A stretch of 39,183 nucleotides of DNA from Chalciporus piperatus. Taxonomy: Eukaryota > Basidiomycota > Agaricomycetes > Boletales > Boletaceae. A program made the translations under genes and the position numbers. The notes beneath the pieces were generated by a model, which searched no databases, had not been told where the DNA came from, and saw only the letters and a list, made by a program, of their open reading frames with translations. How positions within the stretch are numbered: position 1 is the stretch's first letter; each line of letters opens with the position of its first letter. Shown here one piece after another: positions 10,150 to 39,183 of the stretch. The stretch is taken from contig JBBPTG010000226.1 of NCBI GenBank assembly GCA_038093975.1, positions 1 through 39,183 on the forward strand. Reading direction: 5' to 3'.

Positions 10150-11964
10150 ATGTGCTGCCTTAGGTGTGGATTGCAGCCTCGAGGCTCCGGACGACAACTT
10201 GAGGAAGACGAACAGGATGAGCCAGCAAGACCGTCAAATCGGCAACGAATAGAGCCAGACTCCGAGGGAGCTCAGGTATTCATTCATACATATCGTTATA
10301 CTAATGATCCCATCGTCCGAGTCTGCTAGACATCCGAAATCCGTCGCGATCGTGATTCCATGCAACCGCTTGGTCCTGAAAATGGGCCTGTGAACAAGGG
10401 AGATGATTCCCAAGCGAGAGAGGAGGAAGATAGCCAATCCGACGAAGCAAATGATCGTCCACCAAACAGAGATGATGATCCCATGAACGAGGAAGACGAT
10501 GATCCGGGCTACTGGGGAGATGATGATCTGGCAAACGTGGCAGATTTTGGACAACCCAATCAGCCTTGGAACGAGGACGATGGCCAAGTACACCCAGATC
10601 AAGGACCTGAGGCTAGGCCGATTCAACGACAAGATCGAGATCTTCTTCGACATCAAAACCCACTCTTCGAACTTGATCTTTCTCAACTTGAGGAGAGTGC
10701 CCGTATGGATGAACTCAAACGCGACATGCAATTCATTCAAAGTCTACGGAATGCAACATTAGATGATTGTGTTGGACCCGCAGGAGAGTCACTTGCCCGC
10801 CTTCAAAATCCCCCCCGAACGACACCTGAGATCAATGACCCCATTAACGAGCTTGCACTCAGTATGCTCCTCGCACTCGAGCACTCATCGCAAGAAACCT
10901 ACGAGAAGATCCGCCGAGCAATCGAGAAGTGCTTTCCCGACTCTGCAGTTCCATCTTTCTATCATGCCAAGAAACTCCTCACGACACTTAGTGGCATTGA
11001 GCCTATCGTAAACGACATATGCGTCCAAAATTGTGTTGCGTTTACTGGTCCATTCACGGATCTCGAAGAATGTCCAGACTGCGGCCGGCCTCGATATGAT
11101 CAAGTACGGCTCATCAACTCAGGAGGTCGAGACAAGGTCCCTCGTGCGGTCTTCAATACAATCCCGATCGGCCCACAAATCCAAGCACTCTATCGTCATC
11201 CGAGCATGGCTGAAAAACTTCGCTATCATGACCAGCGAACGCAGGAGATTATCAGAGAGATAGAAGAAAACGATGGACTGGTTGACAAGTACGATGACGT
11301 GCTGACAGGGAGTGCATACCTCGATGCTTTTCGATCCGGCGCGATCACGATTCACGAAACACGATACACTCCTCGTTTTCTCGATCGATGGCGCTCAGCT
11401 CTATGAAAAGAAGGAATCCGACTGTTGGATCTATATCTGGATCATCCTCGAGCATGCTCCCAATGAGCGCTACAAAAAGAAGCGTGTTTTACCTGGCACG
11501 ATTATACCTGGACCGAACAAACCCAAGTACATCGAGTCCTTCCTTCACCCTGGGTTTCACCATCTCTCGGCACTACAACGAGAAGGACTCGAAATTTGGA
11601 ATGCATCCACAAACGAGACTTTCGTCTCGCATCCATTCCTCTTTCTGTCTTGTGGTGATGGTCCTGGGTTGCTGTGTACCAGTAATCTCGTCGGTCATTC
11701 TGGCAAAGCGGGCTGTCGCATGTATTGCAAACTCCGAGGCCGTCGTAAACCAGGAGGCTCACAGTACTACCCCGTTCTGCAGCTACCCGGCCCCGACCAG
11801 GATTACAATGTTCCTGGCTGTATGCACGACGATATCGACCCAACCGAGATCGAATATAGTACATCAACGGAGTATATCACAAATCTAAAGTATCTCGTGT
11901 CCTCGCCAACCAAACAAGACTTCAAAGCATGGCGTCTCGAGACAGGAATTGTGGGACCCAGCAT
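10150..11964 (+). pseudogene. tnp2 (CACTA/EnSpm-type) transposase, 5' part, frameshifted and interrupted
   Basis: Exon 10150-10275, a 54-nt intron, then an exon from 10330. The product starts with a short Cys-containing segment (MCCLRCGLQ), a very acidic region, a Cys motif (EECPDCGRPRYD) and the tnp2 core: FSIDGAQLYEKKESDCWIY, PGTIIPGPNKPK, FLHPGFHHLSALQREGL, LVGHSGKAGCR and HDDID. These match the transposase family tnp2 of basidiomycetes. An extra A in the AAA run at 11357-11359 shifts the frame just before FSIDGAQ. The gene then stops in the middle of a conserved stretch (ETGIVGPSI) where a 10-kb element has inserted. Its continuation lies at 21975-22021. Confidence 0.85.
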
Positions 11965-12625
11965 CATCAGCAAGACTGTAAAAAGTCTGAAATGACTGGA
12001 ACTTACTTGTCTGACTGGAGCCAGCCAGACAAGTAAGCCAGTAGCCAAGTACCCCAGGCATCCAGTAGTCTCAGTCATCCAGTACCCAAGTGTTCCAGTC
12101 ATCCAGTAGTCTCAGTCATCCAGTAGTCCAGTAAATCAGGGCTCCAGTAGGATCAGCAGTCTCAGTCATCCAGTCATCCAGTCACCAAGTCATTTCAGTA
12201 GTCCCAGTGGCCCAGTGGCCAAGTGTCCCAATCATCCAGTAGTCTCATGCTCCAGTTATCCAGTTATCCAGCCATCCAGTAATATCAGTAACTCAGTAGC
12301 CCAGTACTTCAGTAATCCAGTAGCCCAGTAGCCCAGTTGACAAGTGATTCCAGTAATCCAGTGCTCCAGTGCTCCAGTAGTCAAGTAGTCCAGTAACTCA
12401 GTAACCCAGTAATCTAATAATCTAGTTATCTAGTAGCCCAGTTGACAAGTGATTCCAGTAGCCTAGTTACTCAGTATGATAGTCAGCCAGTCATCCAGTA
12501 TACCATTGGGCTCAGAAACCTAGTCACTCAGTAATCCAGAAACTCGAGTGTTCAAGAAGTCAATTGTCCCAGGAGCCAAGTAACTCCAGTGTTCGAGATC
12601 CTGAAGTCAATCTGCAAGGCCAATA
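11965..12625 (+). repeat. Left inverted terminal repeat, CAGT-rich
   Basis: About 660 bp of short units of the kind CAGT-AGTC, CAGT-CATC and CAGT-AGCC at roughly 8-10-bp spacing. The outer 290 bp or so match the right end with only a few differences by eye; inner parts differ by unit gains and losses but remain recognisable to about 12625. Confidence 0.85.
12002..12037. repeat. Subterminal hairpin in the left repeat
   Basis: CTTACTTGTCTG at 12002-12013 pairs perfectly with CAGACAAGTAAG at 12026-12037, and the 12-nt loop contains a further CTGG/CCAG pair. A smaller stem, AGACT/AGTCT, sits just outside it. The same hairpin is present at the right end. Confidence 0.85.
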
Positions 12626-12744
12626 GCCAGAGATTTAATAGAGTTAGTTTCAGAAATATATATATTTGTATATCTAATACAATGTATTTACAGGTGGCAA
12701 GAGGGCTCGAGAGGCACCAAGGTTTACAAAGATGGCAAGTAGAC

Positions 12745-13455
12745 TTATGAGCTCAAAACTGTTACCCTCAGCCTTCTTGGCCCATTGAACTCCGAGTCCT
12801 CATAAGCGACAGTGAGCACACAAAGACAGCGAGTGGCAAACTCCTCGAAGTTGGCTTCCTGTTCGTCCTCGATCTCGTCAGTCTTATTGCATGTGCAGAG
12901 CTCGATGATGATACCATACCCTTGGTGATAGACAGGACAGTAGGTAGGAATGATAGATGTGTCAATGGTGAGCGGTAGTGAGGGTACCGGTCCGTTCGTC
13001 AGGTTGAGGGAGTTGAAGTCAAGTCGAGGGTAAGAAGACGAGGGGCCAGGCACTGGGGGAGAGATGACGAGCAAGAGAGTGGTGGATGAGATAGTGGGAT
13101 GGTGGTAATTCCTGATGCTTACAGAATGAAACGGCGACGGGGAAGCAGTGGGAGGAGCCGAATTGTGCTTACTGCGCCGAGAGGAATGCTCTAGGTGATT
13201 CAAGGCGGGCTCATAGTTTACAGATGGTACCTTTGCGGGCAAGAACGACGACACTGAGAACGAGTCATGATGATTGAGAGGTGTCGAGGAGTGGCTAGGA
13301 ATGAAAAACGTACTAGAAGACACGTCAAGGGCGCTTGTCTTGAAAATCTAGTTCGTCTTGTGGATGGGATTTGGGAGAGTCCGGTGTGAGAGGTTGGTAC
13401 GAGAGTTGTGTGGTTCTTCCGTGGGCGGTAGGTGAGATGGGACGGAAAGTCGCCA
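12745..13455 (-). pseudogene. Unidentified Ser/Pro-rich gene fragment, frameshifted
   Basis: An ATG at 13455 opens a 43-codon frame (MATFRPISPTAHG...) ending at 13325. The adjoining frame, one base away, continues to 12745 for about 192 codons, rich in Ser, Pro, Thr and His, with a more structured C-terminal part (IIPTYCPVYHQGYGIIIEL, EFATRCLCVLTVAYED). A single-base change near 13325 would join them. I do not recognise the protein. It may be a third captured host fragment or a former gene of the transposon. Confidence 0.4.
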
Positions 13456-14084
13456 TACTAGTCACTGGGGGCTGAAACGCCAGTGACAACGAGCAACATT
13501 GTTGTTGGACTTCAGTTTGTAGTGCCCTGTTACTATTATGGCGCAGAATTACAGCAAAAACAAAAAACTCCGGGAGCGACGGGGAATAACGACAGCACCC
13601 GAGATGATCCGAGTCACACAGGACTCCAGCCACCTGTCGGCTAAAATTCAACCTCAGCCAATATATAGCACTGCGTTGTCGCTGCTCAAGTTCTCAACCA
13701 CCCACCTATTCTATTCTCTCCACGACCCACTCGCATTCGCTGGCAGTGCACTGTTGCACAGACACTGTCGGTCGTCCAAGTCCTCTTCCCTACGCTGTAG
13801 AGCAATGTAGTTAGGTCATTGAGTCTGTGTCGTAGATCAGGAGAACATTACCTCTTTGTATAATTTTCTGGGGAGCGAACGAGTAGAAGACATCAGCAAG
13901 GCAGAGTGTTGGGGATGGAGCCAGGGTAGGGAGTCATTTGGGGTCTGGTTTCCAACATAAATATATATTCACAATGAATTGCATACCACGGAGACCAACA
14001 ATCAGGGGGAGCATATAATGCTGATGAACATCACAGTCAGAAAGACCATTAAATCAAAAATTCCCTGTGGTGGAATCAGTATGG
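13456..14084. other. Unassigned spacer inside the 10-kb element
   Basis: I see no convincing gene or repeat here. Short frames on both strands lack motifs. The part next to 13455 may hold the former promoter of the minus-strand fragment. Confidence 0.4.
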
Positions 14085-14582
14085 TCATTCACCCGTGACA
14101 CGACGCGGGACACGAACCAATAGCATAGTTCGCGGAACCGTATATACGAGTAGATCATGAGGGACATGAAGAGGATAAGGGTAGCAGCAAGAAGGATGAG
14201 TTGTGACTACACAACGTGTGCAATGTCTATGCGAGGACTGGTAAGGATGAAAGTAACAGGCGTCCAGGATGCAAAACATAACCGTACCAAACAAAATGAG
14301 GGATGCAGAGAATGCCGCAACGATCGTTGAATACCCAGTTTCTTTCACGATGGCGTAGACCACAGGGACCATTAGACTACTGAGGGTAGCAGGGAGCGCC
14401 CGCAAGCCGACATAAGGAACATGGTTTTCGGTGTAGCTGTCCTCGATGTTTTCGAATGTAAAGTGGCCATCAACGGCGACGAACCAACCCGCAAGCCCAA
14501 ACAAGAGCTTTGCAGGTGGTGGGTGGACGTCGAAATAGTATTCGCGGCGGAGATAGTACGAGGCAAACTTGCCAAAGTGGGA
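14085..14582 (-). pseudogene. Captured fragment of a PMT-family protein O-mannosyltransferase gene
   Basis: On the minus strand the sequence encodes HFGKFASYYLRREYYFDVH, PPPAKLLFGLAGWFV, DSYTENHVPYVGLRALPAT and TGYSTIVAAFSASLILF, the classic N-terminal part of PMT enzymes, which transfer mannose from dolichyl phosphate to Ser/Thr in the ER. The frame then runs into an apparent retained intron (about 14287-14207), and resumes in another frame with ILLAATLILFMSLMIYSY and IRFREL, the next membrane segment of the same protein. The rest of the enzyme is missing. Retained intron sequence shows capture at the DNA level, not by reverse transcription. The Asp of the usual LLDAT motif is Ala here. Non-functional. 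Confidence 0.85.
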
Positions 14583-14639
14583 TCGAGAGCGAAGGTGATA
14601 GGGTGGTGAATGGGTGCATGGTGGTGTTGTCGAGGGGAG

Positions 14640-15300
14640 GATGTAAGTAGGATAGGGCCGGGACGCACGAAGACCGCTCACGAAGGCGAAGCGGAGGATG
14701 GGCTGGGACGTGCAACAACCGCTCGTGAAGGTGGGTCGATCGCTGGATGGATACCAAGGACGGTCTAGGGTCAGAGAAGGTCAAACTCTAGGTTCGAGAA
14801 TGGCCTGTGAAGCCGTGAACGAGCTAAATATGAAAGGTGGAGATGGTTAAAGAGCGGTGTATGCAGTAATATGTGGGAGTGTGAAGCGGTCACGGTTGAG
14901 AGAGACGGAGGAGGAATGGGGGGAAAGATGGAAGCGGTTGGCGAGGTGGTACATGAGCGGAGAATCACGAACGGTTGCGCTGTGAGAGGTCATCAGCAAT
15001 GCTCGAGGGAGACATAAGCGGTGTATTTTACCTGTCGTGTACCCACACCACGCCCCTCGACGACTAATCTTCGTCCGCGGTCTTCCGGCTATGTGTCAAT
15101 GGCGGTGGTAGCTGGTGTTGGCGGCGAGGAGACGATGTGGATGTTGAGGTGAAGGACGAGTCGTGTGGCTGTGATTTGTTTCTAATCCCGGAATTTCGCT
15201 TCAAGACAGGCTGCGCTAAGCGAGTGCGGCTCACCGCAATGCTCAGCGCTCAGCACAACGCTCGACGACGACTCGCAACTACCCTCCGAGTCCGCCCAAG
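14640..15300. other. Spacer upstream of the transposase-like gene
   Basis: Holds an imperfect duplication of about 50 bp (near 14655-14700 and 14700-14745; both contain a GGGACG-GC-ACGA-like core and CCGCTC-CGAAGG). Otherwise I see no gene. Its right end contains the promoter of the plus-strand transposase-like gene. Confidence 0.4.
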
Positions 15301-15309
15301 TATAAAAGG
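15301..15309 (+). promoter_or_regulatory. TATA box of the DDE transposase-like gene
   Basis: TATAAAAGG lies 35 bp before the ATG at 15344, preceded by GC-rich sequence and followed by a pyrimidine-rich leader. Spacing allows a transcription start about 25-30 bp downstream and a very short leader. This supports the start at 15344 over the in-frame upstream ATG at 15137. Confidence 0.6.
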
Positions 15310-15343
15310 TACGCCATCTCATCTCTTGTTTTCAGGTCGTCTG

Positions 15344-18300
15344 ATGGACCTCTCCAGCCACCAGTGCGCTGTCTTGGAACAGGCGCAGCAGCTCCTTGAA
15401 GGAGCTGGGCTCTCGCCGGCCGATCTCGAGTCAATTTTCTCCTCGTCGTCTCGTCCGTCCTCCCGGCTATCCTCTCATTCAGACACTCCTTCCACTTCTC
15501 CTTCGTCCGGTCCATCTCCTGCTGTCATCGCATCCCGTTATCTCCCACCGCCCACACGTCCATTTACACCTGACGAAATCAACCAACGACTTCACAAGAT
15601 CAACCCCAAGTCGAAAGCTGACCGCGTTATCTTCCACGTCCCAAACGTGATCGTTGAATACCCAGAAACGGGTGCCGTGCCTTTCCAATCCATTGCCCAT
15701 GTCTTTCCCATTGTTCCTGAACACGTCGTGGATCCCAAGTTGTCTTTCCAGTATTCTCTCGGCGGCGAGCACGGTAAACTGTACGGTGTCCGCTGCAGTC
15801 TTCTGCGGAACAACAACGGCGAGCAGGTCAAATGTAACCGGCTCCTTACATCATGTATTTATTTTACTCGTGTCTGTTATCTCCTGCGGCTCACACTTGT
15901 GTGCAGGCCGTGGTCTCAAGGTCTGCTCTGCCCATTCCAAAGATGCAGCTACCAACCCCCCGCACTGGTATACGACCCGCGAGGACGTGCGTACTGCTAT
16001 CGCCCCTCCGCCATTCCTTCACACAGCCAGATCCGAGGTCTTCCTGAAGACCTTGGCTCTCTTCTGTTCATTGACCGAGCATGGATGTTCGTTCGCAACC
16101 AGCCCTGACTATGTTAAACCAAGAGCAGGGGTGGATGATTCTGAGTCGGAATCAGAGATCGAGAATGACGAGCCTGATAGGTTAAATCCCCCCGGTCCCT
16201 CTGTGTTGACCAAACGCGGTCGTCCAAGTCGGCGAAAGAAAGTAGATGGTAGTGCGAACAAGTGTGCGGGTAGGCTCGTACTGCGTCGAGACGCCTACAA
16301 TCGTTATTTTATTGTGTATGGATTTCTGCTTCGTGATCGAGTAGATCTCCACTAACCATGTCGTAGCTGCCAATACCGCAAGCCCACCGATCACGCACAT
16401 CTCATCATGCGCAACCTTCAACAGTACGATATTGACTACCTTTCGGCACTGCTCAACGACGATCTACCAAGGATTTTGCAGTATGAGAGAGCTGCGATGC
16501 GAGAAGGATATGGTCCACTGGTTCCGTGCACCATCACTGCCTCACCGTCAGCGCAAACGCAAACATGTCGTGCGTATATATACTGTTATATATTTATCTA
16601 TAACTGACGAGTTCTGCAGCGTATTGGCATCGTTCTTCGGATGGCACACTCGCTCAAGGATCTTTAGTGCCATGGATCGTAAAGTGTCCAACAAAGTTCT
16701 ATATCTATGAACCACAAGATCTCACTGCGTGCCCGCGGATCGTTGTTGTCTGTCAAAGCCCACACTCTCATGCACCACCAGCTCCTGTCAACACACCCCC
16801 TCCGCTCGAGGCCGAGTTACAGAACTTGTTGTCAAACATGGGTTGGCGTCTCGCTGACGCAACACCTCGTCGGGTCGTGCTCGACACTGGATTTATGCAT
16901 GGGTTGCGAAGTATACTTGGCTGGGACATTGATAGATCCCCAAGTCTTGTGGATCTTCATCCATCGTATGGAAACCTGGATCACCTGCGGCGTTTCATCC
17001 ATGATGTGCGTAAGGCCCAGTTCCCACACAAGACTGATTTTGACGGCGAGTATGATTTATGTCTTATTTGTTTGTTTATTTATCTATTTATTTGACGTGT
17101 TGACAGCGATTCAACACCTGGTTACCAGTACTGCTGGCCAACCACGCTGCTATGTCCGCTGTGCAGAGATTCACAAATTGAGAAATGGTGAATTTAAGCT
17201 GATCGTTTGCATGACCACTAACATGTCAATTCGACTGATGCATGCAACACAACTTTCGATTGACATGTCCTTCAAGCGTGTTAACGGCAAATGGGAAGAG
17301 TTTGAGATTGAAACGTGGGACAATCAGCTTATGAGATGTATGTTATTTTTATATATATCCAAGATTATTTGAGGCCTCATGAGTGCTTATTTATAGCTGT
17401 CGTCGTTGCCCGTGCTTTCACAACATGTGACTCTGGTGAAGCACACTCTATATTATTTTCTCGCATCTTTGAGATTGCGCAGCAAGATACTGGGCTTCGT
17501 GTTGCATTTCACTATATGGATGGAAAGGGTATTCAGTCCATTGTGGCTGATGGTCACAGGGGACAGGCACTGGGTATGTATTGGACCTTGGTTTTTGAAT
17601 CATACTGACATGGATTCCTAGGGCTTGGGATGTTCTGTGTTTCCCTATGTCGTGGCAACACGATGCCTTGCAGATACGAGCTCCATCGTCGCCTCTGTGA
17701 CCTCACACCATACGAGCATCTTCGCCGAATGTATCGTCTTTGCATTCTCCACTTCCGACGGAACTTATACAAGCTTCGCACAATGGTTAACTCCAACGTG
17801 TATGGTGCTATGCTTAGTATATCATCATTTGAATCCCATCCCGACTTCGAGAACACACTGCGCATAATCAGAAATGGTGGCAAAAAAGCGAAAGGTAAGC
17901 ATTGTCTCACAAAAGAAATCACTAGTCTAACACACCCATGCACAGACTGGTTGAAAGACAAGGAAGATAGCATATTCACAATTCCGGCACTCTACTTTCC
18001 AAGGAGCCTCATACCCGCCAAGCATTGGAAGGCTTGTCCTACAACAACAAATGGCAATGAGCAGGCACATAGGAATATAAATCGAGATGGGATTAACCTC
18101 ACCTTACTCGGAGGCGTCATGCATGGCCAGGACTATGACGAACGTGTCAGCACTAGCATGCAAGTTCAATTAACCTACGGGATCCAGGTTCGAGATCAAA
18201 TGTCAACACATGGATATCGTACATCACGCACTGTTTCACGTCTTGGTAAGTCACCATTGTCGAGTTCTTAACAAAGCAACTTACTTTGAACTAGTTAGCA

Positions 18301-18809
18301 CCCAACGCCGACAGTACGAGACAAGACGTCCATCATTGCCAACCATTCACGAAGATAGTCGCAATGACCACTCTAATTCAGTCTTCCCCGCATCCTGTCA
18401 CCCAATCAGACCACCACAGCATCACAACACTATACCCCACTTACCTTCATTCACGGAACATCCACCACCCACTCGTACCATACCACTGAACCCAATCAAA
18501 CCTAATGCGCCCCAACTCTCGACCTACAGCAGCCTCGCGAATGCACTGACACCTAATGTCAGTATCACCGACTATCAGTCATTCACGAGCACCAGGGACA
18601 CTCGTACCATACCACTGAACCCAATCAAACCTAATGCACCCCAACTCTCGACCTACAGCAGCCTCGCGAATGCGCTGACACCTAGTGTCAGTATCACCGA
18701 CTACCAGTCGTTCACGAGCACCAGGGACACTCGTACCATACCACTGCACCTTTCACATGTCATCACTGTAGTTGTCACTTGCTCTTCTTTCTCTCTGTCG
18801 CTCACATAG
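15344..18809 (+). CDS. Intact nine-exon DDE transposase-like protein (MULE-like?), about 1008 aa
   Basis: Exons 15344-15854, 15907-16315, 16367-16569, 16620-17049, 17129-17337, 17397-17573, 17622-17894, 17946-18245 and 18295-18809 all join in phase (3027 nt). Order: Ser-rich N-terminus; a Cys-rich region (GVRCS, QVKCN, LKVCSAHS, CQYRK) likely to bind zinc; a Pro-rich linker; then the probable catalytic core. Candidate acidic residues are Asp563 (LSIDMSFKRV), Asp639 (SIVADGHRGQALG) and Glu776 (TTNGNEQAHRNINRDG), with LCILHFRRN between, reminiscent of the C/H motif of MULE transposases. I recall close relatives scattered through mushroom genomes, usually unnamed. The tail carries a 129-bp repeat. 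A downstream frame to about 19006 (TYTPGKKYWKHD) may be an alternative last exon. No lesion found, so it could be the active enzyme of the 10-kb element. Confidence 0.7.
18471..18728 (+). repeat. 129-bp in-frame tandem duplication in the last exon
   Basis: Two copies (18471-18599 and 18600-18728) differ at only a few positions, and the first bases of a third follow. Each encodes 43 residues beginning TRTIPLNPIKPNAPQ. High similarity indicates a recent duplication. Confidence 0.85.
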
Positions 18810-19009
18810 ATGTTCATCATGGCACTTGCAATATTCACAGCCCTGTCAGGGTCCGCAATGGACGTGCTTACACTTACACACCAGGAAAAAAATACTGGAA
18901 ACATGACACATTTTTGCCTCTCCACTCAGGTGATTTGCCTGTCAAGTTTTTTATGTTTGGAGGTGCATCTGTTCCTCTTGATGACAGTGCTTACCTTGGC
19001 TATTAAAAG

Positions 19010-20371
19010 TGTGTGTGTAATCTGGGCAGTGCACTTGTCTGATGCTTGACATCTCATAGATTTCATCAGGCAGTCAGGTAAATTCTACTTGATAATAGTG
19101 CTACTTAGAGTACCATGCAGCAGACTGGCCTGCTATTATCAATTTTAGGTGTAATATAAAAACTACAATGAGAATGGAAAAAGCCCTGGCCTGGGCCCTG
19201 GGCTTGGGCCTGTGTATATCTCAAGCCAGGCCGTAAGCCCTTACAAGCCCAATATCTGGGCCTGGCTTGGCCTGGCCTATATAGGGCCTGGCCTGTGGGC
19301 TTCAGGGCTTCAGGCCCAGCCCATCCATCACTACAAGTATCGTAGTACAGTTCACTCGCTGGTGCTCTCGGGTCTAACTAGAGAATGGATTATCAGAAAC
19401 TAGCAGGTACATACATGTGCAATATGGCGTTACACCATGCAGCATACGTAGAAAGTTGAACACTCACCATAATCAATTCTTGCTTTGTGAACTTTCACCG
19501 CAGGAGTGAGCAGGGCAGCAAGAAACATCGATAACACACGAGATTACAGTGCAGCGAGGGCGGCGAACAGAGATAAGTGAGATGTGGGCAAGAGCGAGGG
19601 AAAGAGAAGAACTCACCGGTCATTACAATGGTTGACAGCGAGGGCAAGACAAGGATGAGGGCAGCGGAGAAGGCAAGACCACGGCGAAGGCAATATGATG
19701 ATGATGAGGGCAACGGCAAAGGCAAGACCACGGCAAAGGCAAAGGCAAGACGACGACGAGGGCGGCGGCGAGGGCAATGAACAAGGTGAAGGCAGTGAGG
19801 GCGGCGTGGGTGAAATGGGGGAAAGAGCGAGGGTAAGAGAAGAAGCGCTCACCAGTTATTATAATGGTTGATCGCGTAGCGAGAATGTGACTCGGCAATT
19901 GCTCGGAAAGGTTCCGGTGGCTAAGCGAACTTAGTGAAGCGGTTTTCCGGGGTCTGTGGTGTGATTTTCGGCAGGTGTCCCGGACTTTTTAGCCATCGCA
20001 GGTACCGTGCGCCGTAATGCTTCTCCAGAGTAACAAGGCACACAACACTCTTGGACTTCAGCGAGGTGGCTCTTAGCGTTGCACTGCAATATTATGTAAG
20101 CTTTGGTAAGCCGAACACACATCAAACACGCCCAACTACAACACTACAACCAACCTATCCACCAAGACTCCAACCGCTGCATCAAACAATCTCCGAGGTT
20201 CACCTCGTCGTCCCTGCTTAGTCCCTCAACTTGAGGACCCAGCCGTCGCTCTCCTCAAGAGCATTAACGCCCACGCAAACGGTCAAGGTTTCCAACTCTC
20301 ACAAGCTCCGTGAGGTGTGCGACCGCCGTTACCACCAACGCTGTGGTCCGCTCACTGACCAACGTAAAAGC
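19010..20371. repeat. Low-complexity spacer: GGCCTGG-rich patch and purine-rich repeats
   Basis: No gene recognised. At about 19180-19325 the strand is dominated by GGCCTGG, GGGCTTGGG and GCCCAGCCC, which can pair with one another. At about 19560-19880 purine-rich GGCAAG and GAGGGC units run in tandem, and a segment near 19591-19630 (AGAGCGAGGG-AAGAGAAGAA, then TACAATGGTTGA) recurs near 19824-19870. Open frames here follow the repeats and encode Arg/Lys-Gly-rich or Leu-Pro-rich strings with no motif. Confidence 0.55.
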
Positions 20372-20998
20372 AGTTCATCTTCTGGACCTTTACCAAGTCT
20401 CCCCAACGCCGCATTGAGTTGTTCGGCCCCAACAGGCTCAAACAGTAAGACCATTCGTGAGTATTGTACTCCTGCTCTTCATCAACTCTACCATCAGTTT
20501 CTACGAAGATCATAGTGCCGGTAACACAGTCAAGGCCCTCGTTGACTCTCTGAAAGTCAATCCGCCAACCTCGTTCCTGGCGGATGATGCCATGTTCCTC
20601 GCTGCATGTGCATCTCGCCCTCTCCCGTGCCGATGTTGGTATTGCCATTGAAGGTGCCACCAACGCTGTCCGTGATGCTGTTGACATTGTCTTGACTGAG
20701 CCCAGTCGCTCCACCATCGTTCACGCTACCCGCGGTTCCGGTATCATTTTCCAATGTACGTGCAACTACTCCATCTACGCCTGCGCTGAGACATCCGTAG
20801 GGTCGTCTGCTTCGCTATCTTGGCTTTCACGTTCTGCTTCGACTTCCCTCCCTTCATGGTTCTGATCCTCGCCCTCTTGAACGATGGTAACATCATGACA
20901 CTCTCTGTTGACCGTGTCTGAGCGCCCGTCTGTTGCTCTCATGGTCGCGTTCTGTATTGCTCAGCTGATTTCGTTGATCATCGCCGCCTATGGTAACT
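20372..20998 (+). pseudogene. Captured, internally deleted plasma-membrane H+-ATPase (P-type) fragment
   Basis: Pieces in different frames match a PM H+-ATPase: RRIELFGPNRLKQ (20407-20445), SIVLLLFINSTISFYED with AGNTVKALVDSL (about 20457-20555), then, after loss of the whole phosphorylation and nucleotide-binding region, ALSRADVGIAIEGAT and DIVLTEPSRSTIVHA (from about 20620), [39 protein letters not shown] and VAFCIAQLISLIIAAYGN. Order and strand are those of the real gene. The enzyme pumps protons across the plasma membrane, but this copy lacks the catalytic DKTGT region and is shifted and stopped several times. Confidence 0.85.
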
Positions 20999-21142
20999 GT
21001 AGTACCAGTCGTGCACTGCTTCGATCCATGAGTCCTTCATTCGTTGTACATTAGAACTACCCTGTAAACAATTGTACTAGATAAACAAATATATAATTGT
21101 CCCAAAACTAGCCTGTTGTATTACTGGATGTTGGACTGATGT

Positions 21143-21974
21143 ATGATTGATTTCGGGATTTCTTAAGCACTGGAGTCACGTGGCTTCTGGGATAGTTAAC
21201 TTCTCGAGTACTGGAGTTGCTGGATTACTGGCTGACTGTCATACTGAGTAAATAGGCTACTGGACTACTAGGTGACTGGATTATTAGATTACTAGATAAC
21301 TGGACCACTGGGTGACTGGATTACTAGATAACTGGACCACTGGGTGACTGGATTACTGGATTACTGGATTACTGAAATCACTTGTCAATTGGGCTACTGG
21401 GCTACTGGATTACTGAAGTACTGGGCTACTGGATTACTGGATTACTGGATTACTGGAATCACTTGTCAACTGGGCTACTGGGCTACTGGATTACTGAAGT
21501 ACTGGGCTACTGAGTTACTGATATTACTGGATGGCTAGATAACTGGATAACTGGAGCATTGCCACACTGAACTGACTGGGTGACTGGAGCACTGGAGCAC
21601 TGCCACACTGAACTGACTGGGTGACTGGAGCACTTGGCCACTGGGCCACTGGGACTACTGAAATGACTTGGTGACTGGATGACTGGGTGACTGAGACTAC
21701 TGGATGATTGGGACACTTGGCCACTGGGCCACTGGGACTACTGAAATGACTTGGTGACTGGATGACTGGATGACTGAGACTACTGATACTACTGGAGCCC
21801 TGATTTACTGGACTACTGGATGACTGAGACTACTGGATGACTGGAACACTTGGTTACTGGATGACTGAGACTACTGGATGCCTGGGGTACTTGGCTACTG
21901 GCTTACTTGTCTGGCTGGCTCCAGTCAGACAAGTAAGCTCCAGTCATTTCAGACTTTTTACAGTCTTGCTGATG
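21143..21974 (-). repeat. Right inverted terminal repeat, CAGT/ACTG-rich
   Basis: Reverse complement of the left repeat, about 830 bp, longer because of extra ACTG units. Ends in CAGTCTTGCTGATG. The hairpin CTTACTTGTCTG (21902-21913) with CAGACAAGTAAG (21926-21937) mirrors the left one. Inner similarity to the left repeat is traceable to about 21143. Confidence 0.85.
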
Positions 21975-22021
21975 ATCCTTCTTGGACTCCAGCCGGAGTG
22001 TATTCTGCATCAGCAATTTAA
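21975..22021 (+). pseudogene. Continuation of the split tnp2 transposase
   Basis: After the right end of the 10-kb element the sequence reads LLGLQPECILHQQFN in the frame that continues GPSI of the left part (one AT removed). Only about 15 codons remain before the Copia LTR begins. The rest of the tnp2 gene is not seen in the window. Confidence 0.7.
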
Positions 22022-22557: not shown

Positions 22558-25500
22558 GGTTATGAGCCCTGGCTAGCGCCCACTAGCAGCACACGGTCCT
22601 CTTGCCCAACGACTCCGAGTCCCTTGACTCTACCCACTTTCGCGCAATTTTCCCGCGCCCTTCCGGCCCGTTTCCGGACCGTTCTAGACATCCTCAGATC
22701 ACTCCGACATAGGAACCATCTCCTGTCACCTGTCGATCAAACTGTCTTGTCACCTGTCATCTGTCACCTGTCATAATCATGACATCGGATACTACCACCC
22801 GGACTTCCACAGTCCCTCGCTTGATGGGACCCAGAAACTTCACCATTTGGCGTCTTCGCATCACCGTCCTCCTCAGAAGCGAAAAGGTTCTAGGTGTTGT
22901 ACTAGGAACGGATCCGGATCCCTCGCTATCCGTAGTTTCCGGAACCTCTAGCACAGCCACTCCCGCAGTTGCTCCGTCCACTTCCGCATCCGGAAACACT
23001 CCTACTCCTGCTACGACCACCACCCCTTCTACCACTGGTCCAACGGCAGAGGAGATTCGGAAGTGGAGGGAACGAGATGAGAAAGCGCACGGAATCATCC
23101 AAACCCACCTGGATGACGTTATCCTGATGCAAACGGAGAACATCCTGACTGCTCAGGAACTCTGGGATAAACTCCTGGAGCTCTATGCAACTCCTAGCGT
23201 TTCCGACGCTTTCCATTCATTCCGCAGTCTCTTCTCCACTGCCTGGAACGGCACCTCTGCCATCTCTGAGCACGTCGCTTCCATCCGGACCATCCAACGC
23301 CAACTCCTCGGGATGCAATACACCATCGATCCACAACTCCTTGCCTTCACACTCCTCAACTCCCTTCCCAAAACTCCGGATTGGACCATGTTCACATCCT
23401 CCATCATCAACACCGTTGAGAAAGACAAACTCACGTTCGACACCATCGAACTTCGTGTTCTATCTGAGGAATCCCGTCTCAATCCGTCCGGAACTTCTGA
23501 TTCCGCCCTCAAAGCGTCCGGAAGAGTTCCTGGAAACTCCTCCGCCTGGTGTGAGCACCATCAGTCCAATGGACATGACTCGTCCAACTGCTTCGCTTAC
23601 AAGAAGTGGGTCGAGAGGCTTCGCGAAGGCGGAGGACCTGGACAGAAAGGAAAGGGAAAGGAAAGGGAAAAGGCTAATGCGACGGAAGAGCGTCCAGACC
23701 AAAGTTCCGGACCTCCGGAAAGTGCAAACGTAGCTAAGGAGAGTGTATCTGAGTCTCTAATCCAACGTGTTCACGCCTATCTGTCGTCTGAACCCAAGCT
23801 GGCTGACTTCTCACTCCTCATCGACTCCGGAGCAACATCCCACATGGTTCCGCACCGTTCCTGGTTCCGCACGTACCATCCACTCCATCCACCACGTCCC
23901 GTGTCATTCGGAGACAACTCCACCGTTTCCGCGATCGGAATTGGATCCGTTCCACTTCGCTCCACTGTCAAAGGGAAGACATTTGAGGTCATCCTAAGCA
24001 ATGTCCTTCTCATTCCAGACTTCCGGATTTCTCTCATCTCCGTCCATCGCCTGTCCAATGCTGGACTATCCACCCTCTTTCCTGCGAACTCCTCCATCTG
24101 CCACATCCGGAAGGGGCCTGTTCCCATCATCGTTGGAACACACAAGGAGGGTTTGTACCACGCGGAAGCCACTCCAATGCTCACTCCAAAGGCTGCGCAT
24201 GCCACTGTGGATATCAACCTCCTCCATCGACGCATGGGACACATCTCCATCCCACGGATTCAGCATATGATCAGGCATGGTCAACTCCAAGGGATTGACA
24301 CGCTTTCTGGAACTCCGGAATTCTGTGAGTCCTGCGTCCTTGGAAAGATGAAGAAGCTTCCGTTCGAGCTACTGGAAAGACCCCGAGCTACGCATGCACT
24401 CCAAGTGGTCCACACGGATGTCGGAGGTCCTATAACTCCACAGTCCAGGGAAGGATTCCGGTTCTGGCTCCTAATCGTCGACGACTTCTCCCGTTTCCCT
24501 TGGATCTACTTCCTGAAGAAGAAGAGCGATGTCCTAGCCACATACAACCAGTGGAAGGTAGACGTCAAGGCCTTCTTCAAGGCTGAGGTCGAACAGGAGG
24601 AGTTGTCTGAGGCGCATGTCCAGTTCCTTAGGAGCGATGGGGGTGGCGAGTACACCGGACAGGACTTCCGGAACCAACTCTGGAAAGATGGAACCCTTCA
24701 GGAAATGTCTGCTCCTTATACTCCAGAGCAAAACGGACTCGCGGAACGGATGAACCAAACTCTATCCTCGCTCGCCAATACCATGCTCGAGGAGTCCAAA
24801 CTTCCTAAATTCTTCTGGGCTGACGCTATGGCCACTGCTGCCTATGTTACATCCAGGAGTCCAACGTCCGCGCTCCAAGGAGCGAATCCCTACCAGATCC
24901 TTTTCAAACGGAAAGTCGATCCGACCCTCTTCCGTCCTTTTGGATGTTCTGCCTATGCTCACATTCCGAAGGATTTGCGTGGAGGAAAGTTCCGGAGCCA
25001 CAGACAGAAATGTATCATGCTTGGATATACCTATGGGCAACAGGCATACAAGCTCCTCGATATCGAACGCCATACCATCATCTCCAGTCGACATGTCACC
25101 TTCAATGAGTCCGGAACCATCTCTGAAGCGGACTCCGCACCTTGGAGAAATCTCCCTGCTGAGGGTCAGTGGGAGGGACTTGTTCCTCAGCGTCTCCATC
25201 AGCCGGAACCTGAGGAATCCGAGGAGGACAACATTCCTGTACCTCCAGCCCTTCCAGGACCAGTGGGAGATGATCTCATACCTCCAGATCATTCCGTTGA
25301 GGATCTCGTCGACCGCTTGGGTCAACTCCACATAGGTCCGGAACCTCCTGCTCCTGCTCCTGCCCCTCATCCTGCTCCCATTCCCGTTCCTATTCCTGTT
25401 CCTGCCCCTGCTGCTTCAGTTCGAAGTCCATCTCCGGAGCGACCTCCTGCACAAGTTGTAGCAGGAGTTCAAAGGAGCAATCGGAACCGTCAAACAGCAA

Positions 25501-25882
25501 ACCGGAATCGAGACTACCAGCGCACCCTTGATGAGGAAGCTGCACGCCGAGCTGAACGCCAGGATGTCCAACAGGAACAACTGGAACCCCCTGCGGAAGT
25601 ACTTTCCGAAAACGCGGAAGCTCCGGATCCAGATTTGGACATTCCAGGAGCATTCTACGCCTCTCAGGAAAGGCTCCGGGAGCATATCTTTGCAGGAGCC
25701 GCTGACGCAACCCAGGGAGAACACCTTCCTAACACTATCAAGGAAGCGTATGCAGGTCCTAATGCAGACCAGTGGAGATCCGCTGTCGAGGAGGAACTCC
25801 TCAGCTTAAACACCAACCATGTCTACGAAACCGTCCCCATTCCATCCGGAGTCAATCCGATCACTTCCAAGCCCGTGTTCAT
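22022..25882 (+). mobile_element. Ty1/Copia retrotransposon, 3' truncated
   Basis: A 5' LTR, leader, and a gag-protease-integrase frame are present. Reverse transcriptase, RNase H and the 3' LTR are missing because sequence beyond 25882 is another element. It interrupts the tnp2 remnant at about 22021. Confidence 0.85.
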
Positions 25883-25913
25883 CAGGGAAAACCTCCCCTG
25901 GATAATTGCATAG
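22779..25913 (+). pseudogene. Copia gag-pol polyprotein, truncated at the start of reverse transcriptase
   Basis: The frame opens at ATG 22779 and stays open to a chance stop at 25911-25913 inside the next element. Gag domain first (FTIWRLRITVLL); a zinc-knuckle-like CEHHQSNGHDSSNC near residue 256; protease LIDSGATSHMV near 346; pre-integrase HHCC region (LHRRMGHISIPRI, CESCVLGKMKK); integrase Asp in VHTDVGGPI (about 543), Asp in LRSDGGGEY (about 616) and Glu in NGLAERMNQT (about 650); then a Pro-rich linker. The last Copia residues, NPITSKPVFI, stand where the RT domain normally begins. Ser- and Pro-rich linkers are usual for the family. No stop or frameshift before the truncation, so damage came from a rearrangement, not slow decay. 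Confidence 0.9.
25883..25911 (+). repeat. Left 29-bp inverted repeat
   Basis: Identical over all 29 bases to the reverse complement of 28429-28457; identity stretches up to three bases further outwards (CAT) on each side. Confidence 0.95.
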
Positions 25914-30540: not shown

Positions 30541-33500
30541 TATCTTTCCGAAAACCCAGGACCACGCTTTATTCGCACGACGGATCGAGAACTGAAATTA
30601 TCTACTTCTATTGCTTCGCAACGCCTTCCGTCTACCTTCACACGCGCAGAAGCACTTCTGGATTCAGGAGCTAATGCTATCTTCGTTGATCGGAGATGGG
30701 CTGATAAAATCAAATTACCCCTCGTGCAACTCAGACATCCACTTACGGTATACAACGTGGACGGAACACATAACTCCGCTGGACAGATAACACACTGTGC
30801 GGAAATCATTATCCACTTCAACGGACATCGTGAGAAGGCCATCGCAGAAGTCACTGATCTCGGAAAGAATCAGATGATACTAGGATACGCATGGCTGAAG
30901 CAACACAATCCAGAGATAGATTGGAACAAAGGAACGGTCCACATGACACGTTGTCCTTGGTCTTGTTCCGTCTTACGAGATAAACCGCCGTTCGCACGTC
31001 AACTTGATGATGAAGAACGAAATTCTCTTCGTCACATCAATGCCGCAAAGAGGGAGGTACCTGAACCAAAAATGGAAAAGACTCCAGAAGAGCTTGTTCC
31101 AAAAGAATATCACAAGTATATCCACCTATTCAAGAAAAAGGAATCTGAACGCATGCCAACCCGTAAGCCGTGGGATCATGCAATTGATTTGAAAGACACC
31201 TACAAGCCGAAAAAGGGTCGTCTAATTCCACTCTCTGTAACGGAACAAGAGGAAGTCAGTGCCTTCATTGATGATCAGCTCAAGAAAGGATACATTCGTC
31301 CTTCCAAATCTGAGCAGACTTCCCCCGTGTTCTTCGTTCCTAAGAAAGATGGCAAGAAACGCATGGTTCAAGATTACCGTTACCTGAATGAACATACGGT
31401 GAAAAACAATTATCCGCTACCCCTCATCTCCCAATTGGTTGATAAACTGAAAGGCGCAAAACTGTTTACCAAAATGGACTTACGCTGGGGATACAACAAC
31501 ATCCGCATCAAAGAAGGCGATGAATCTAAAGCCGCATTCGTATGCTTCCGTGGCGCCTTCGAACCCTTGGTGATGTACTTCGGATTATGCAATTCTCCTG
31601 CAACATTCCAAACCATGATGAACGACATCTTCTCGGATATGGAAGACACCGTCGTTGTTTACATTGACGACATCATGATCTTTACCAAATCCGACGACCC
31701 TGCTGTCCATGCCACAATAGTCAGAGAAGTTCTTCGTCGCCTAGAAGAGAATGACCTTTTCATCAAACCAGAGAAATGTGTCTTCCATACCAAGGAGGTA
31801 GAATTCTTGGGAATGACAATTACTCCCGAAGGAATCAGGATGGACGACGATAAGGTCAAGGCAATTACCGAATGGCCAACTCCGACGAATGTCAGAGGTG
31901 TCAGAAGCTTCCTTGGGTTAGCAAACTTCTATCGCCGCTTCATTCAAGATTACGCTCAAGTAGCTAGACCCTTGAATGACCTTACCAAGAAGGATGTGAA
32001 ATTCGCATGGGAAGATGCGCAGAGGAACGCCTTCAACACATTAAAACAGAAATTCATCACCGCTCCCATACTCGCTTTTCCAGACAATGACAAACGCTTC
32101 CGTCTAGAATCGGATGCATCTAATTACGCCACGGGTGCTGTTCTATCTATAGAACAAGGAGACAAATGGCATCCCGTCGCGTTCTCTTCCCACTCCATGT
32201 CGCCAGAAGAACGCAACTATCCTATCGCGGATAAAGAGATGCTAAGCGTTATCAGAAGTCTAGAACAATGGAGACATTATCTGGAAGGTTCCAAGCACGA
32301 GTTCGAAATCTGGAACGATCACGCGAATCTTCAGTTCTTCATGACTCGGCAAGATCTAAATCGATGCCAAGCACGTTGGTCTCAATATCTTAGCCGATTC
32401 AATTTCAAATGGTTACACAAGGCAGGTTCCCAAATGGGAAAAGCCGATGCTTTATCAAGAAGAGAAGATCACGCAATCGGTATCGAAGCAGATAACAAAG
32501 CTGTCCTTGTAATACCTCCGAACAGGATAGCGGCCACGTCAACTGTTCAACTCTCAACCGATTCCGATCTGATCAAGGACAAAATCAGAAAAGCAACCTT
32601 CAAAATACGTGAGACAGAAGTCATGAAACTCTGTAAAGAACACAGCATTTGTGAAGAGTCTGATGGAATTCTGATTGACAAGAAAGGAAGATTATACGTT
32701 CCTGAAGAAGAAGATCTCCGCATGGAGATTATTCGGCTTCATCATGACACACCCGTTGCTGGACATCCCGGATATGAAAAGACAATTGAACTGCTCCAGC
32801 GCAGCTACGCCTGGCCAGGAATGGCTACGCTTGTAAAAGACTATGTCTCACGCTGTGACAGATGTGCACGTTTCAAAGGGATAAACTATGCTCCTTCTGG
32901 AAAGCTCCACCCCCTCGAAGTTCCGGATCTTCCCTGGGAACATATCTCTGCAGATTTCACTACCGATCTGCCACTCTCGAACGGATTCGATTCTATTCTT
33001 GTCATTGTAGACAGATTCTCCAAAGAAGTCGAATTCATTCCCTGCAACAAGACAGTCACCGCTCTCGACACTGCTCGTCTTTACCTAACCCATGTATGGA
33101 AACATCATGGACTTCCTAAAACCATCATATCGGACCGAGGTCCGCAATTTGCATCTCAAGTGATGAAAGACATATGCAAACGTCTTGGCATTACGCCCAA
33201 ACTCTCTACCGCCTTTCATCCCCAAACTGATGGACAAACTGAACGTATGAATCGAGATCTACAACAGTACCTTCGTCTATTCTCGTCAGAAAAACAAGAA
33301 GAATGGACTGATTGGTTGCCAATTGCGCAATTCTCATACAACTCGAAGAAGCAAGCTTCTACATCCAAGGCTCCTTTCAACGTCACGCACACATATTCCC
33401 CAAGGATGGGAATAGAACATTACACGTCTAAAGCACCAGCTGCTACAGACTTTGTTGACACGCTTGCCAATACGTTGAAAGAAACCAAGGATAACATAAT

Positions 33501-34116
33501 AGAAGCTCAGAAGCGTATGAAAGCGCAAGCCGACAAACACCACTCTGACTCACCATCTTACGAGATTGGTCAGAAAGTTTGGTTGTCTACAGCTAACCTC
33601 CGCCTGGCGCAGAGATCTAAGAAACTTTCCCCACGTTGGTTGGGCCCTTACGAAATCACAGCCCTGATTGGACGGAACGCACTACGTTTGAAGCTTCCGC
33701 GTACCATGAAAATTCACCCCGTCGTTAATGTTTCACGTGTCAAACCATACAAGGACAGGTTACGGAAGCAAACTGTTGACAAGCCTGGGCCTGTGATTGT
33801 GACAGAAGACAGAGATGATGAATATGAGGTGGATTACATCGTTGATTCTCGTTTACAGGGAAAAACCCTGAAATACCTCGTGCATTGGAAAGGCTATGCA
33901 GAATCTGATCGGACATGGGAACCAAGATCGAATCTCAAGAATGCACAGGATGCAATAAGGGAATTCAACAAGATACATCCGTCCGCTCCACGATTCCTTC
34001 GCATGACACAGAGTCTATTTGAGTCACTGTTCCAACCGTATGACAATCTAACGAGTCAGGTGGACGATGGACAAATTAATTGGTTGAATACCGTGCCGAA
34101 TACCGAAGAGGTATAA
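30541..34116 (+). CDS. Gypsy Pol polyprotein: protease, RT, RNase H, integrase, chromodomain
   Basis: The frame is open from 30541 to TAA at 34114. Domains in order: aspartic protease (LLDSGANAIFVD, active Asp at 30661), reverse transcriptase (FTKMDLRWGYNNIRI, then YIDDIMIF at about 31660), RNase H (RLESDASNYATGAVLS, ending DALSRRED), integrase with HHCC zinc finger (HHDTPVAGHPGYEK, CDRCARF) and catalytic Asp, Asp, Glu in SADFTTDLP, IISDRGPQFAS and TDGQTERMNRD, and a C-terminal chromodomain (EVDYIVDSRLQGKTLKYLV, HWKGYAESDRTWEP). The chromodomain places it among chromoviruses, which target chromatin. The same frame also runs upstream from the gag overlap but meets TGA at 30538-30540, probably a mutated Arg codon, which would prevent a Gag-Pol fusion. 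The catalytic domains themselves look undamaged. Confidence 0.92.
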   Translation, partial: YLSENPGPRFIRTTDRELKLSTSIASQRLPSTFTRAEALLDSGANAIFVDRRWADKIKLPLVQLRHPLTVYNVDGTHNSAGQITHCAEIIIHFNGHREKAIAEVTDLGKNQMILGYAWLKQHNPEIDWNKGTVHMTRCPWSCSVLRDKPPFARQLDDEERNSLRHINAAKREVPEPKMEKTPEELVPKEYHKYIHLFKKKESERMPTRKPWDHAIDLKDTYKPKKGRLIPLSVTEQEEVSAFIDDQLKKGYIRPSKSEQTSPVFFVPKKDGKKRMVQDYRYLNEHTVKNNYPLPLISQLVDKLKGAKLFTKMDLRWGYNNIRIKEGDESKAAFVCFRGAFEPLVMYFGLCNSPATFQTMMNDIFSDMEDTVVVYIDDIMIFTKSDDPAVHATIVREVLRRLEENDLFIKPEKCVFHTKEVEFLGMTITPEGIRMDDDKVKAITEWPTPTNVRGVRSFLGLANFYRRFIQDYAQVARPLNDLTKKDVKFAWEDAQRNAFNTLKQKFITAPILAFPDNDKRFRLESDASNYATGAVLSIEQGDKWHPVAFSSHSMSPEERNYPIADKEMLSVIRSLEQWRHYLEGSKHEFEIWNDHANLQFFMTRQDLNRCQARWSQYLSRFNFKWLHKAGSQMGKADALSRREDHAIGIEADNKAVLVIPPNRIAATSTVQLSTDSDLIKDKIRKATFKIRETEVMKLCKEHSICEESDGILIDKKGRLYVPEEEDLRMEIIRLHHDTPVAGHPGYEKTIELLQRSYAWPGMATLVKDYVSRCDRCARFKGINYAPSGKLHPLEVPDLPWEHISADFTTDLPLSNGFDSILVIVDRFSKEVEFIPCNKTVTALDTARLYLTHVWKHHGLPKTIISDRGPQFASQVMKDICKRLGITPKLSTAFHPQTDGQTERMNRDLQQYLRLFSSEKQEEWTDWLPIAQFSYNSKKQASTSKAPFNVTHTYSPRMGIEHYTSKAPAATDFVDTLANTLKETKDNIIEAQKRMKAQADKHHSDSPSYEIGQKVWLSTANLRLAQRSKKLSPRWLGPYEITALIGRNALRLKLPRTMKIHPVVNVSRVKPYKDRLRKQTVDKPGPVIVTEDRDDEYEVDYIVDSRLQGKTLKYLVHWKGYAESDRTWEPRSNLKNAQDAIREFNKIHPSAPRFLRMTQSLFESLFQPYDNLTSQVDDGQINWLNTVPNTEEV

Positions 34117-36890: not shown

Positions 36891-39183
36891 CTAGTACAAC
36901 GTCTGATAGGAATACTTACTAGACCAATTATTCAAAAGGAAGGTAGAACAAGTGTCTAAAACAATATCACCAGTCCAATCGGCAGAACGCTCATCATCAG
37001 TAACATGCGGAATTAGTTGACAACTCTGCCTAATGGTTTTGAGAGGGATAATGTCACCGGGAATGGTAGGAGCCAAGTTTGAGATATTTGGAGGAAGAGA
37101 AGGTTTAGTAACTCTATACATGTTGTGGAACTTGCCTGGTGACGCCGAATGCTTATACCACTCTACGTATGCCAATGGTTCTTTTGGCCAGGTATCAGGC
37201 GCCTGAGTCAAAAGAGAAAGGGAGGAGGGAAGTTTGAAAATAACTCGCAAACGTCCTATTCGCATTCCTTTGAAAGCAAGATGTCAGATTGTTGGGTACA
37301 AATTCAAAACAGATACTATACTTACCTTGCAAACCTGTAGTCTCTGCATCGCTGGTATAAGCCACGACAACGGTATCAAACCTGCCTGGCTTGGCTTTGA
37401 TGGAATCTATCCCCTCTGTACCATCAACGTCGTTACCGAGTACGTCGAGAGCGAACTTGCAGGTATGCCAAATGTCCAGTTTGTCGAATGGAAGATGGGC
37501 AAATGGAATGTTGCGGCGGGGAAGAGCTTCATCAGCGGGTAGAAGGGAGTTGAGATAGGTTCGAAGATGATGAGGGAATGAGGGAGCGTGATGGTTCTTT
37601 TGGATGCTATTGATAGTTTGGCCTGGGACGGCTGGCTGACGAGCGATCACCACGCCAGCTCCAGAAGTTTTTGGATTGAGTGGTTCCTCCCGATCATCCT
37701 GAAGGTCGTCTTGAGTCCTGTATTTGACGTAGCCCTGGAAAAGACTGATTTTCTCTTGTCGCTCCAGCCACCGGGTCATTTGTGGAACTTCATTTCTGAA
37801 GTTGGAGGCTCGCCAGCCTTCCTTGGCCATGTCTATATGGAAGCGCTCGAAAGCTTCCGTGTTGTAGTTGTCCGTGGTTCCGAAGTATCGAATAGAGTCG
37901 GCGTAATGCACGAGAGAATGGAACTTGGGGATATTGAAATGTTCTCGAATGCCCAGCCCATTTTCCCCAGCGAGGAAAATCTCTTTATTCTCGTGGAAGA
38001 GACTGAGCGATTCCTCCATCCATTGGAGGGAATCATCGTCGTGGGTGGGGTATTGGGCTATGTATATGAAGTCGAGGAGGGCGCGGTAGGAGGTGATGAC
38101 CTGGGAGGGGACTTTACCGACCAGGACGCCCAAGAGAATGCGGGCCATGTCCTTTCTTTCTTTGCCAGCGATTTGAGACAGTTTGGACCACCCATTGGTA
38201 AAGTGACGAACGCCGAAACAAGGAGGGAGAGTGCGGATTCGAGAATCGAGCTCCTTGGTGTCCATGAGACTGGTGCACCAGGAGGTGAGGTACTTGACGA
38301 TCCCATGGTATAGTTGGTGGAGAACGTCGGGCGTGATGGAAAGATGAATGTCGCAGAGAGGGAATCCGTCCCAGAAAGGTCGACTGACCCCACCAGACAG
38401 CAGCGCAGCTTTGCAAAGGTCCAGGTAATTGGAATTGGACGTGGCCTGTGCCATGGCGTTCCTTATGGTATCGGCAGTAGATTTCTGAGTGCGAGGTGGT
38501 CCAGGAACTCTCTCTTCCAGCTCATCCTCTGTGACGAGACACTTGGCGCATGTCCCGTACTTGGCGCAGGTCACCAGACACTGCTCGGGATAGTCGGCGA
38601 CGTACGCAGCGAGGATTGGATGAACTCGCCTGACTTTCCCATCTCCTCCCGCTATCTCCACTCCTTTCTTCCCTGCCTCTATCAGTGGCTCCAATATCAA
38701 CCTCATCGACTCATGGAATAGCTGTTGAACGCGCGCCGACTGTTCTTTCTTTGTCAAGTCCTTGCCGACAATCTTGCTGATGGAGAGATAGCCGATGAGG
38801 ACGCATGCATTTTCGCTAGGCTTGCGTCGAAGGGCGCGAGGAATGTTGCCCAGCGTCAGATACACCGGATATGCCATTTTCCCCCCAGAAAACTGCGTAA
38901 GCTGCGTCTTATCGGTTGAGATGATGACGGGGGCAACGCAGGAGTGCTCAGGTAACCGTTTCTGAGACAACTGTCAGTGACGGGGAAAACTGATGCGGAT
39001 TAGACTTACCTGGACTGCTGCCCACCAATCCCCGGTCCACATCTCATGGTATATTCTCTTCTTCTTGGACGAGTTGGTGAAAATCCGTTTAGGCCTGTAG
39101 ACGATGTCCTTCGCATGTGCTGGATTTCCCAATAAAGTCTTGACCGCATCGATGACGTCCCGATAGTGTATCGTGTGTCTGGC
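36891..39183 (-). CDS. Plavaka-family transposase, 5' end beyond the window
   Basis: Exons 39183-39010 (partial, 58 codons), 38970-37326 and 37267-36891 join in phase through 39-nt and 58-nt introns; stop TAG at 36891-36893. Signature segments are all present: RIYHEMWTGDWWAAVQ, PVIISTDKTQLTQFSG, YPVYLTLGNIPRALRRKPS, CAKYGTCAKCLV, SITPDVLHQLYHGIVKYL, NYNTEAFERFHIDMAKEGWR and, at the C-terminus, GRLRVIFKLP and TWPKEPLAYVEWYK. Plavaka is a basidiomycete branch of the CACTA-like DDE transposons; likely acidic residues lie in STDKTQ, TPDVLHQ and NTEAFERFH. No stop or frameshift is seen in about 732 visible codons, so this copy may be active or recently so. Terminal repeats and the N-terminus lie outside or were not recognised. 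Confidence 0.92.

Follow-up and report, generated by a model that had tools for sequence, protein, structure and literature searches.

A layered insertion in Chalciporus piperatus

The window studied here is the whole of a 39,183-nucleotide contig of the mushroom Chalciporus piperatus (JBBPTG010000226.1, hereafter C226; other contigs of the 35.5-Mb assembly that was searched are named in the same way, for example C81 and C183). Positions 11965-21974 hold a 10,010-bp unit that the original prediction, made from the letters alone, had described as one apparently young transposon of unknown superfamily, with a transposase-like gene and pieces of host genes between its ends. We find instead two elements, one inside the other, in a case that is ordinary overall but layered. 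We are highly confident that the outer unit is a transposon of a type known from mushrooms, PlavakaB, and that an element resembling Mutator-like elements (MULEs) is nested within it, each carrying its own scraps of host genes.

The outer element has PlavakaB-type ends

The outer element (11965-21974, no strand assigned; about 3.46 kb without its insert) starts and stops exactly at these positions, with the termini 5'-CATCAGCAAG..CTTGCTGATG-3'. Its CAGT-rich left arm (11965-12476, plus strand) reappears inverted as the right arm (21435-21974, minus strand): the two align over the left arm's first 512 bases, with 84% identity across 541 columns, and a fainter likeness continues to about position 12694. 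A 2-bp AT duplication flanks the element (11963-11964 and 21975-21976, plus strand), within a tnp2-type transposase gene (PF02992, E 4.8e-08) that the insertion interrupts. C81:105411-105607 resembles the joined flanks at 99% over 197 bases; it reads through the junction and has AT only once. Because of this empty site, 11965-21974 is well supported as a single insertion event, and both the ends and the repairable insertion site of the original prediction stand.

The same ends recur elsewhere in the genome. A 29-base terminal pattern without the first CAT, allowing up to three mismatches, was found at 118 places (56 on the plus strand and 62 on the minus strand; the first 100 of the 118 were itemised), and the reversed pattern, used as control, at none. 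Both sides were in hand for 19 candidate elements, 18 of which were paired; ten pairs carry a 2-bp duplication, one a 3-bp duplication and seven neither. When end partners were shuffled, a mean of 2.0 pairs had a 2-bp duplication, and none of 20,000 shuffles reached ten. The original prediction had named several copies with shared ends but unlike cargo as support for it, and such copies are present among the paired elements. Their interiors are unlike, with partial overlap, and form four groups: C2 and C36a with C249, C259, C338 and C348; C20, C65 and C221; C18 and C174b with C84, C207 and the window; and C170. Two unlike elements, at C2:1177948 (L023) and C36:101838 (L032), have the flank on one side in common, as if their ends had recombined or the flank itself were repeated.

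Passages of a 2025 paper describe PlavakaB families with 5'-CATCA..TGATG-3' termini and duplications of 2 or 3 bp (PMC12730594). The outer element has these termini and a 2-bp duplication, which replaces the unknown superfamily of the original prediction with a described one. The genome yields 135 exon-by-exon matches to a Plavaka transposase model. An element at C170:16519-31017 (L062/L063; 14,499 bp), which has the ends of the window copy, CAGT-rich arms on either side and TA as its duplication, encodes a match to the Plavaka transposase family PF18759 at 24266-25435, in agreement with PlavakaB at the level of the family; among the arms compared, its right arm is best matched by its own left arm. 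In a genome-wide profile scan the Plavaka transposase model gave no match inside the window copy, which we therefore read as non-autonomous. The family resembles PlavakaB in its CATCA..TGATG ends, its 2-3 bp duplication and its C170 member with a Plavaka transposase, whereas the window copy differs in lacking that transposase and in holding H+-ATPase fragments and the nested element. KDZ and hAT affinities were considered and rejected: their duplications are given as 7-8 bp in the same source, as far as its passages go (PMC12730594), and that of the outer element is 2 bp.

The description of the element as young holds in part. The target had already diverged from its 99% identical copy when the insertion took place, and positions 12640-13144 are 97% identical to C62; however, the remaining interior is only 75-77% identical to the fetched copies that have most in common with it (C18, C174b, C84 and C207), and the arms differ by 16%.

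A MULE-like element is nested within it

Positions 13513-20050 (plus strand) form a nested element of 6,538 bp. It matches C183:37897-44148, its closest relative in the genome, segment by segment and with matching ends, and the likeness is confined to segments within 13512-20050. Inverted repeats stand at both borders in both copies, with CAGTTTGTAGTGCCCTGTTACT on the left; those of the window are 22 bp long (left, 13513-13534, plus strand; right, 20029-20050, minus strand) and alike at 16 of 22 positions. Direct repeats lie beside these ends: TTGGACTT (8 bp; 13505-13512 and 20051-20058, plus strand) in the window, and a 9-bp GGGTTGTCT in C183. Genome-wide, the MULE-like end pattern occurs free of mismatches at those four places and once more with a mismatch, and the control gave one match per strand. 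Around the C183 copy, no CATCAGCAAG-type ends lie between positions 35.6 and 47.5 kb of that contig. Plavaka relatives also cross the inner insertion site uninterrupted; the best of them, C465 (72%), covers 85 bases left of the junction, and others (C174b, C84, C207, C316 and more) only 13-27 bases. The single 10-kb element of the original prediction thus comes apart, and the transposase-like gene that it had assigned to the outer ends belongs to the nested element. The prediction had itself named a transposase gene in a smaller element with its own ends as an arrangement that would refute it, and this is the arrangement found.

The two copies share a left arm (13513-14044, plus strand) and diverge at the same point. 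Identity between the window and C183 is 89% in this arm, which lies upstream of the gene, and 76% in the gene region (15001-18614), the opposite of what would be expected.

MULE target duplications are given as 8-11 bp in the parts of PMC6446971 that treat them. The nested element, with a duplication of 8 bp (9 bp in C183) and inverted repeats bracketing a DDE transposase, resembles the MULEs described there, as it does in having host fragments inside. It differs in that its repeats are short and imperfect at 22 bp, in falling below the Pfam MULE cut-off, and in keeping a transposase alongside the captured fragment. Because that cut-off was missed, we term the element MULE-like and do not certify it as a MULE.

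A predicted transposase gene with a replaced tail

The predicted transposase gene (15344-19006, plus strand) has ten exons, one GC-AG intron and an open reading of 1047 residues (1008 in the original prediction); splice sites were picked by eye, guided by the C183 copy. Its relatives (P0001-P0102, n = 102) were found with residues 500-860 only as query, and 80 of the 102 were aligned in a first set and 47 in a second. The putative catalytic residues, all encoded on the plus strand, are an aspartate at residue 562 (17262-17264), the equivalent of D565 in P0004, which is kept in at least 90% of the 80 relatives; a second aspartate at residue 638 (17549-17551); and a glutamate at residue 775 (18059-18061). 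Between the latter two lie the codons of a C..H motif (17741 and 17750, plus strand), a motif associated with MULEs.

At the 3' end of the gene lies a 5'-truncated dispersed repeat of 582 bp (18753-19334, plus strand), which recurs at eight other loci at 94-98% identity, all with the same 3' end, and is not present in the C183 copy. Exon 10 of the gene model falls within it. Because the inserted repeat supplies this exon, and the transposase tails of the C183 copy and of a Lanmaoa protein end otherwise, the gene as modelled has lost its usual C-terminal tail, replaced by the truncated repeat, and the putative catalytic DDE core is intact. The earlier claim of a fully open transposase gene is therefore sound for the reading frame and its core, but not for the last exon. 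Judged by eye from its common 3' end and the 5' cut of the window copy, the repeat is more like the tail of a retrotransposon. A Helitron was considered and rejected, since the base after CACTA varies in the eight other loci. A repeat of 129-bp period occupies 18571-18750 in the 3' coding region of the transposase.

Both elements hold pieces of host genes

The host pieces found in the two kinds of transposon differ in history, a PMT mannosyltransferase fragment in the MULE-like element and plasma-membrane H+-ATPase fragments in the Plavaka part; both identifications in the original prediction were borne out. The PMT fragment (14045-14580, minus strand) is 91% identical to C6:129423-129958 over 536 bp, gap-free, and matches PF02366 at E 1e-29, a family that the C6 gene matches likewise. 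Because the frame changes inside the matching stretch, the alignment suggests that an intron was copied along with the fragment, between putative splice sites. In the C183 sister an unlike fragment follows the same end of the common left arm, in the slot where the window has PMT; aligned with a gene locus on C84, it is 74% identical across 346 columns, of which 46 are gaps. A GATA gene was considered as its source and rejected: the C84 match (E 0.0062) is below the cut-off, and an open reading frame overlapping the fragment has no match. Given the weakness of that match, we call the source just a host-like gene.

In the outer element, the N-terminal part of the H+-ATPase lies in two pieces within 20402-20551 (plus strand), with likeness to C32, C483, C372 and C473, and a later part at 20609-20999 (plus strand). 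The fragment matches sequences of solved structures (E 1.5e-10). The ATPase Pfam models matched none of the window frames tested, including 20418-20648, and the equivalent region of the C18 element has an open reading frame that matches Cation_ATPase_N (E 2.1e-06). Similar pieces occur in C18 and C174b (79-80% at the DNA level) and partly in C84. A longer open copy on C32 (534-residue frame, 83% protein identity to the C18 piece) is a candidate source. For about 2.6 kb the C170 element resembles the Rax2 gene region on C12, mostly at 91% identity; part of the C12 sequence is absent from it.

Host fragments that lie between transposon ends and differ among copies recall plant Pack-TYPE and Pack-MULE elements, as outlined in PMC8903248; here, by contrast, the host is a fungus and the nested element keeps its transposase. 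As its transposase core is present, and Pack-MULEs are non-autonomous and have no transposase, it is not a strict Pack-MULE. Among fungi, portions of PMC3538342 describe a hAT element of Pyrenophora tritici-repentis that transduplicated histone H3, likewise a DNA transposon with a host gene between inverted repeats, although that system is an ascomycete one, of the hAT superfamily and with near-identical copies. For mushrooms, the title and opening of the abstract of PMC4289320, among the papers that turned up, report gene capture by Helitrons, and a literature search covering titles, abstract openings and passages found no description of gene capture by Plavaka.

Alternative readings

Several observations weigh against a MULE-like element nested in a PlavakaB element. 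For the outer element, a PF18759 transposase was seen in just one element with these ends, C170, whose left arm is closer to a C221 arm (86%) than to its own right arm (82%), and the window copy has no Plavaka match; the seven pairs with neither a 2-bp nor a 3-bp duplication require an assumed recombination between copies, and C55 was left out of the pairs, its right end failing the pattern. For the nested element, the duplication in the window is 8 bp and not 9, and a third transposase relative, C95 (66%), shows just one similar MULE-type end, with mismatches, within the stretch fetched. The first catalytic aspartate is absent from the 90%-conserved columns of the wider 47-relative set, the 1047-residue protein has no Pfam match at E 10, and PF10551 (MULE) is matched by one of the 47 relatives (E 7.1e-05; 23.6 bits, short of the 27.6-bit cut-off). 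A Foldseek search with the transposase gave no match at E 0.001; in a second look its best structural match was ISCth4, which belongs to IS256, a prokaryotic family akin to MULEs.

It is nevertheless very unlikely that the outer ends stem from another CA..TG lineage, such as an EnSpm/CACTA-like one. The insertion target is itself a tnp2-type gene, and CA..TG ends with duplications of 2-5 bp are common to most of the CMCT group, PlavakaB included, according to passages of PMC12730594; yet the PlavakaB ends published there are CATCA..TGATG with 2-3 bp, and the sole transposase found between these ends matches PF18759. We give still less credence to capture of the MULE-like gene as Plavaka cargo, in the manner of the host fragments, in place of insertion by its own transposition: Plavaka copies do contain other captured fragments, but inverted repeats at both borders, with duplications of 8 bp in the window and 9 bp in C183, are marks of transposition. 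Next to no weight falls on one autonomous 10-kb transposon of unknown superfamily, with the transposase-like gene acting on the CAGT-rich ends. Gene and ends do lie within a single 10,010-bp stretch, whose 2-bp duplication is clean, and the core of the gene is open; against this, two copies show the gene within ends and duplications of its own, outer-type ends are missing around the C183 copy, relatives uninterrupted at the inner site exist, and C170 has a Plavaka transposase between the same ends. Because the nested element has its own ends, this reading is refuted.

The preferred account, a MULE-like element inside a PlavakaB-type one, builds on both sets of ends, both duplications, the empty outer site, the uninterrupted relatives at the inner site and the likely fragment sources. 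A non-autonomous PlavakaB-type transposon of about 3.46 kb, with old H+-ATPase fragments, would have entered the tnp2-type gene and duplicated AT. What moved it was presumably a Plavaka transposase acting in trans and encoded elsewhere. Next, a MULE-like element of 6.5 kb, with its captured PMT fragment, would have been inserted by its own DDE transposase, duplicating 8 bp, and the 5'-truncated repeat would have landed last, at the 3' end of the MULE-like transposase gene. The Plavaka insertion probably came before that of the MULE-like element, since only the outer copy in the window was found with a MULE-like element in this genome. The fragments may have been captured by copying at the DNA level.

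Other features of the window

At 22779-25913 and 30724-34116 lie long open frames that look, by eye, like those of Copia-like and Gypsy-like retrotransposons, and a Plavaka transposase gene (PF18759, E 8.8e-83) lies beyond the studied element at 37198-38970 on the minus strand. The likeness of the target to C81 ends at 22007, and CATCAGCAATTTAATG starts at 22008, 33 bp from the outer element; it is possibly the end of a second CATCA-type insertion. A search of the window found no convincing partner end for it; TTGCTGATG occurs exactly at 38774, inside the Plavaka gene.

Two possible gene-capturing lineages in one mushroom

What had appeared to be a new superfamily is two known kinds of transposon, one inside the other, with ends and duplications given for each. 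Because they are nested, a repeat library should not list 11965-21974 as a single element. We lean slightly towards regarding both lineages as gene-capturing, the MULE-like one with a fixed slot that holds differing fragments next to a retained transposase, and the PlavakaB one with members that include the 14.5-kb element with transposase and Rax2 piece and small ones with H+-ATPase pieces. The remaining interest of the locus lies there, in one mushroom whose two DNA transposon lineages, unrelated to each other, both contain pieces of host genes.
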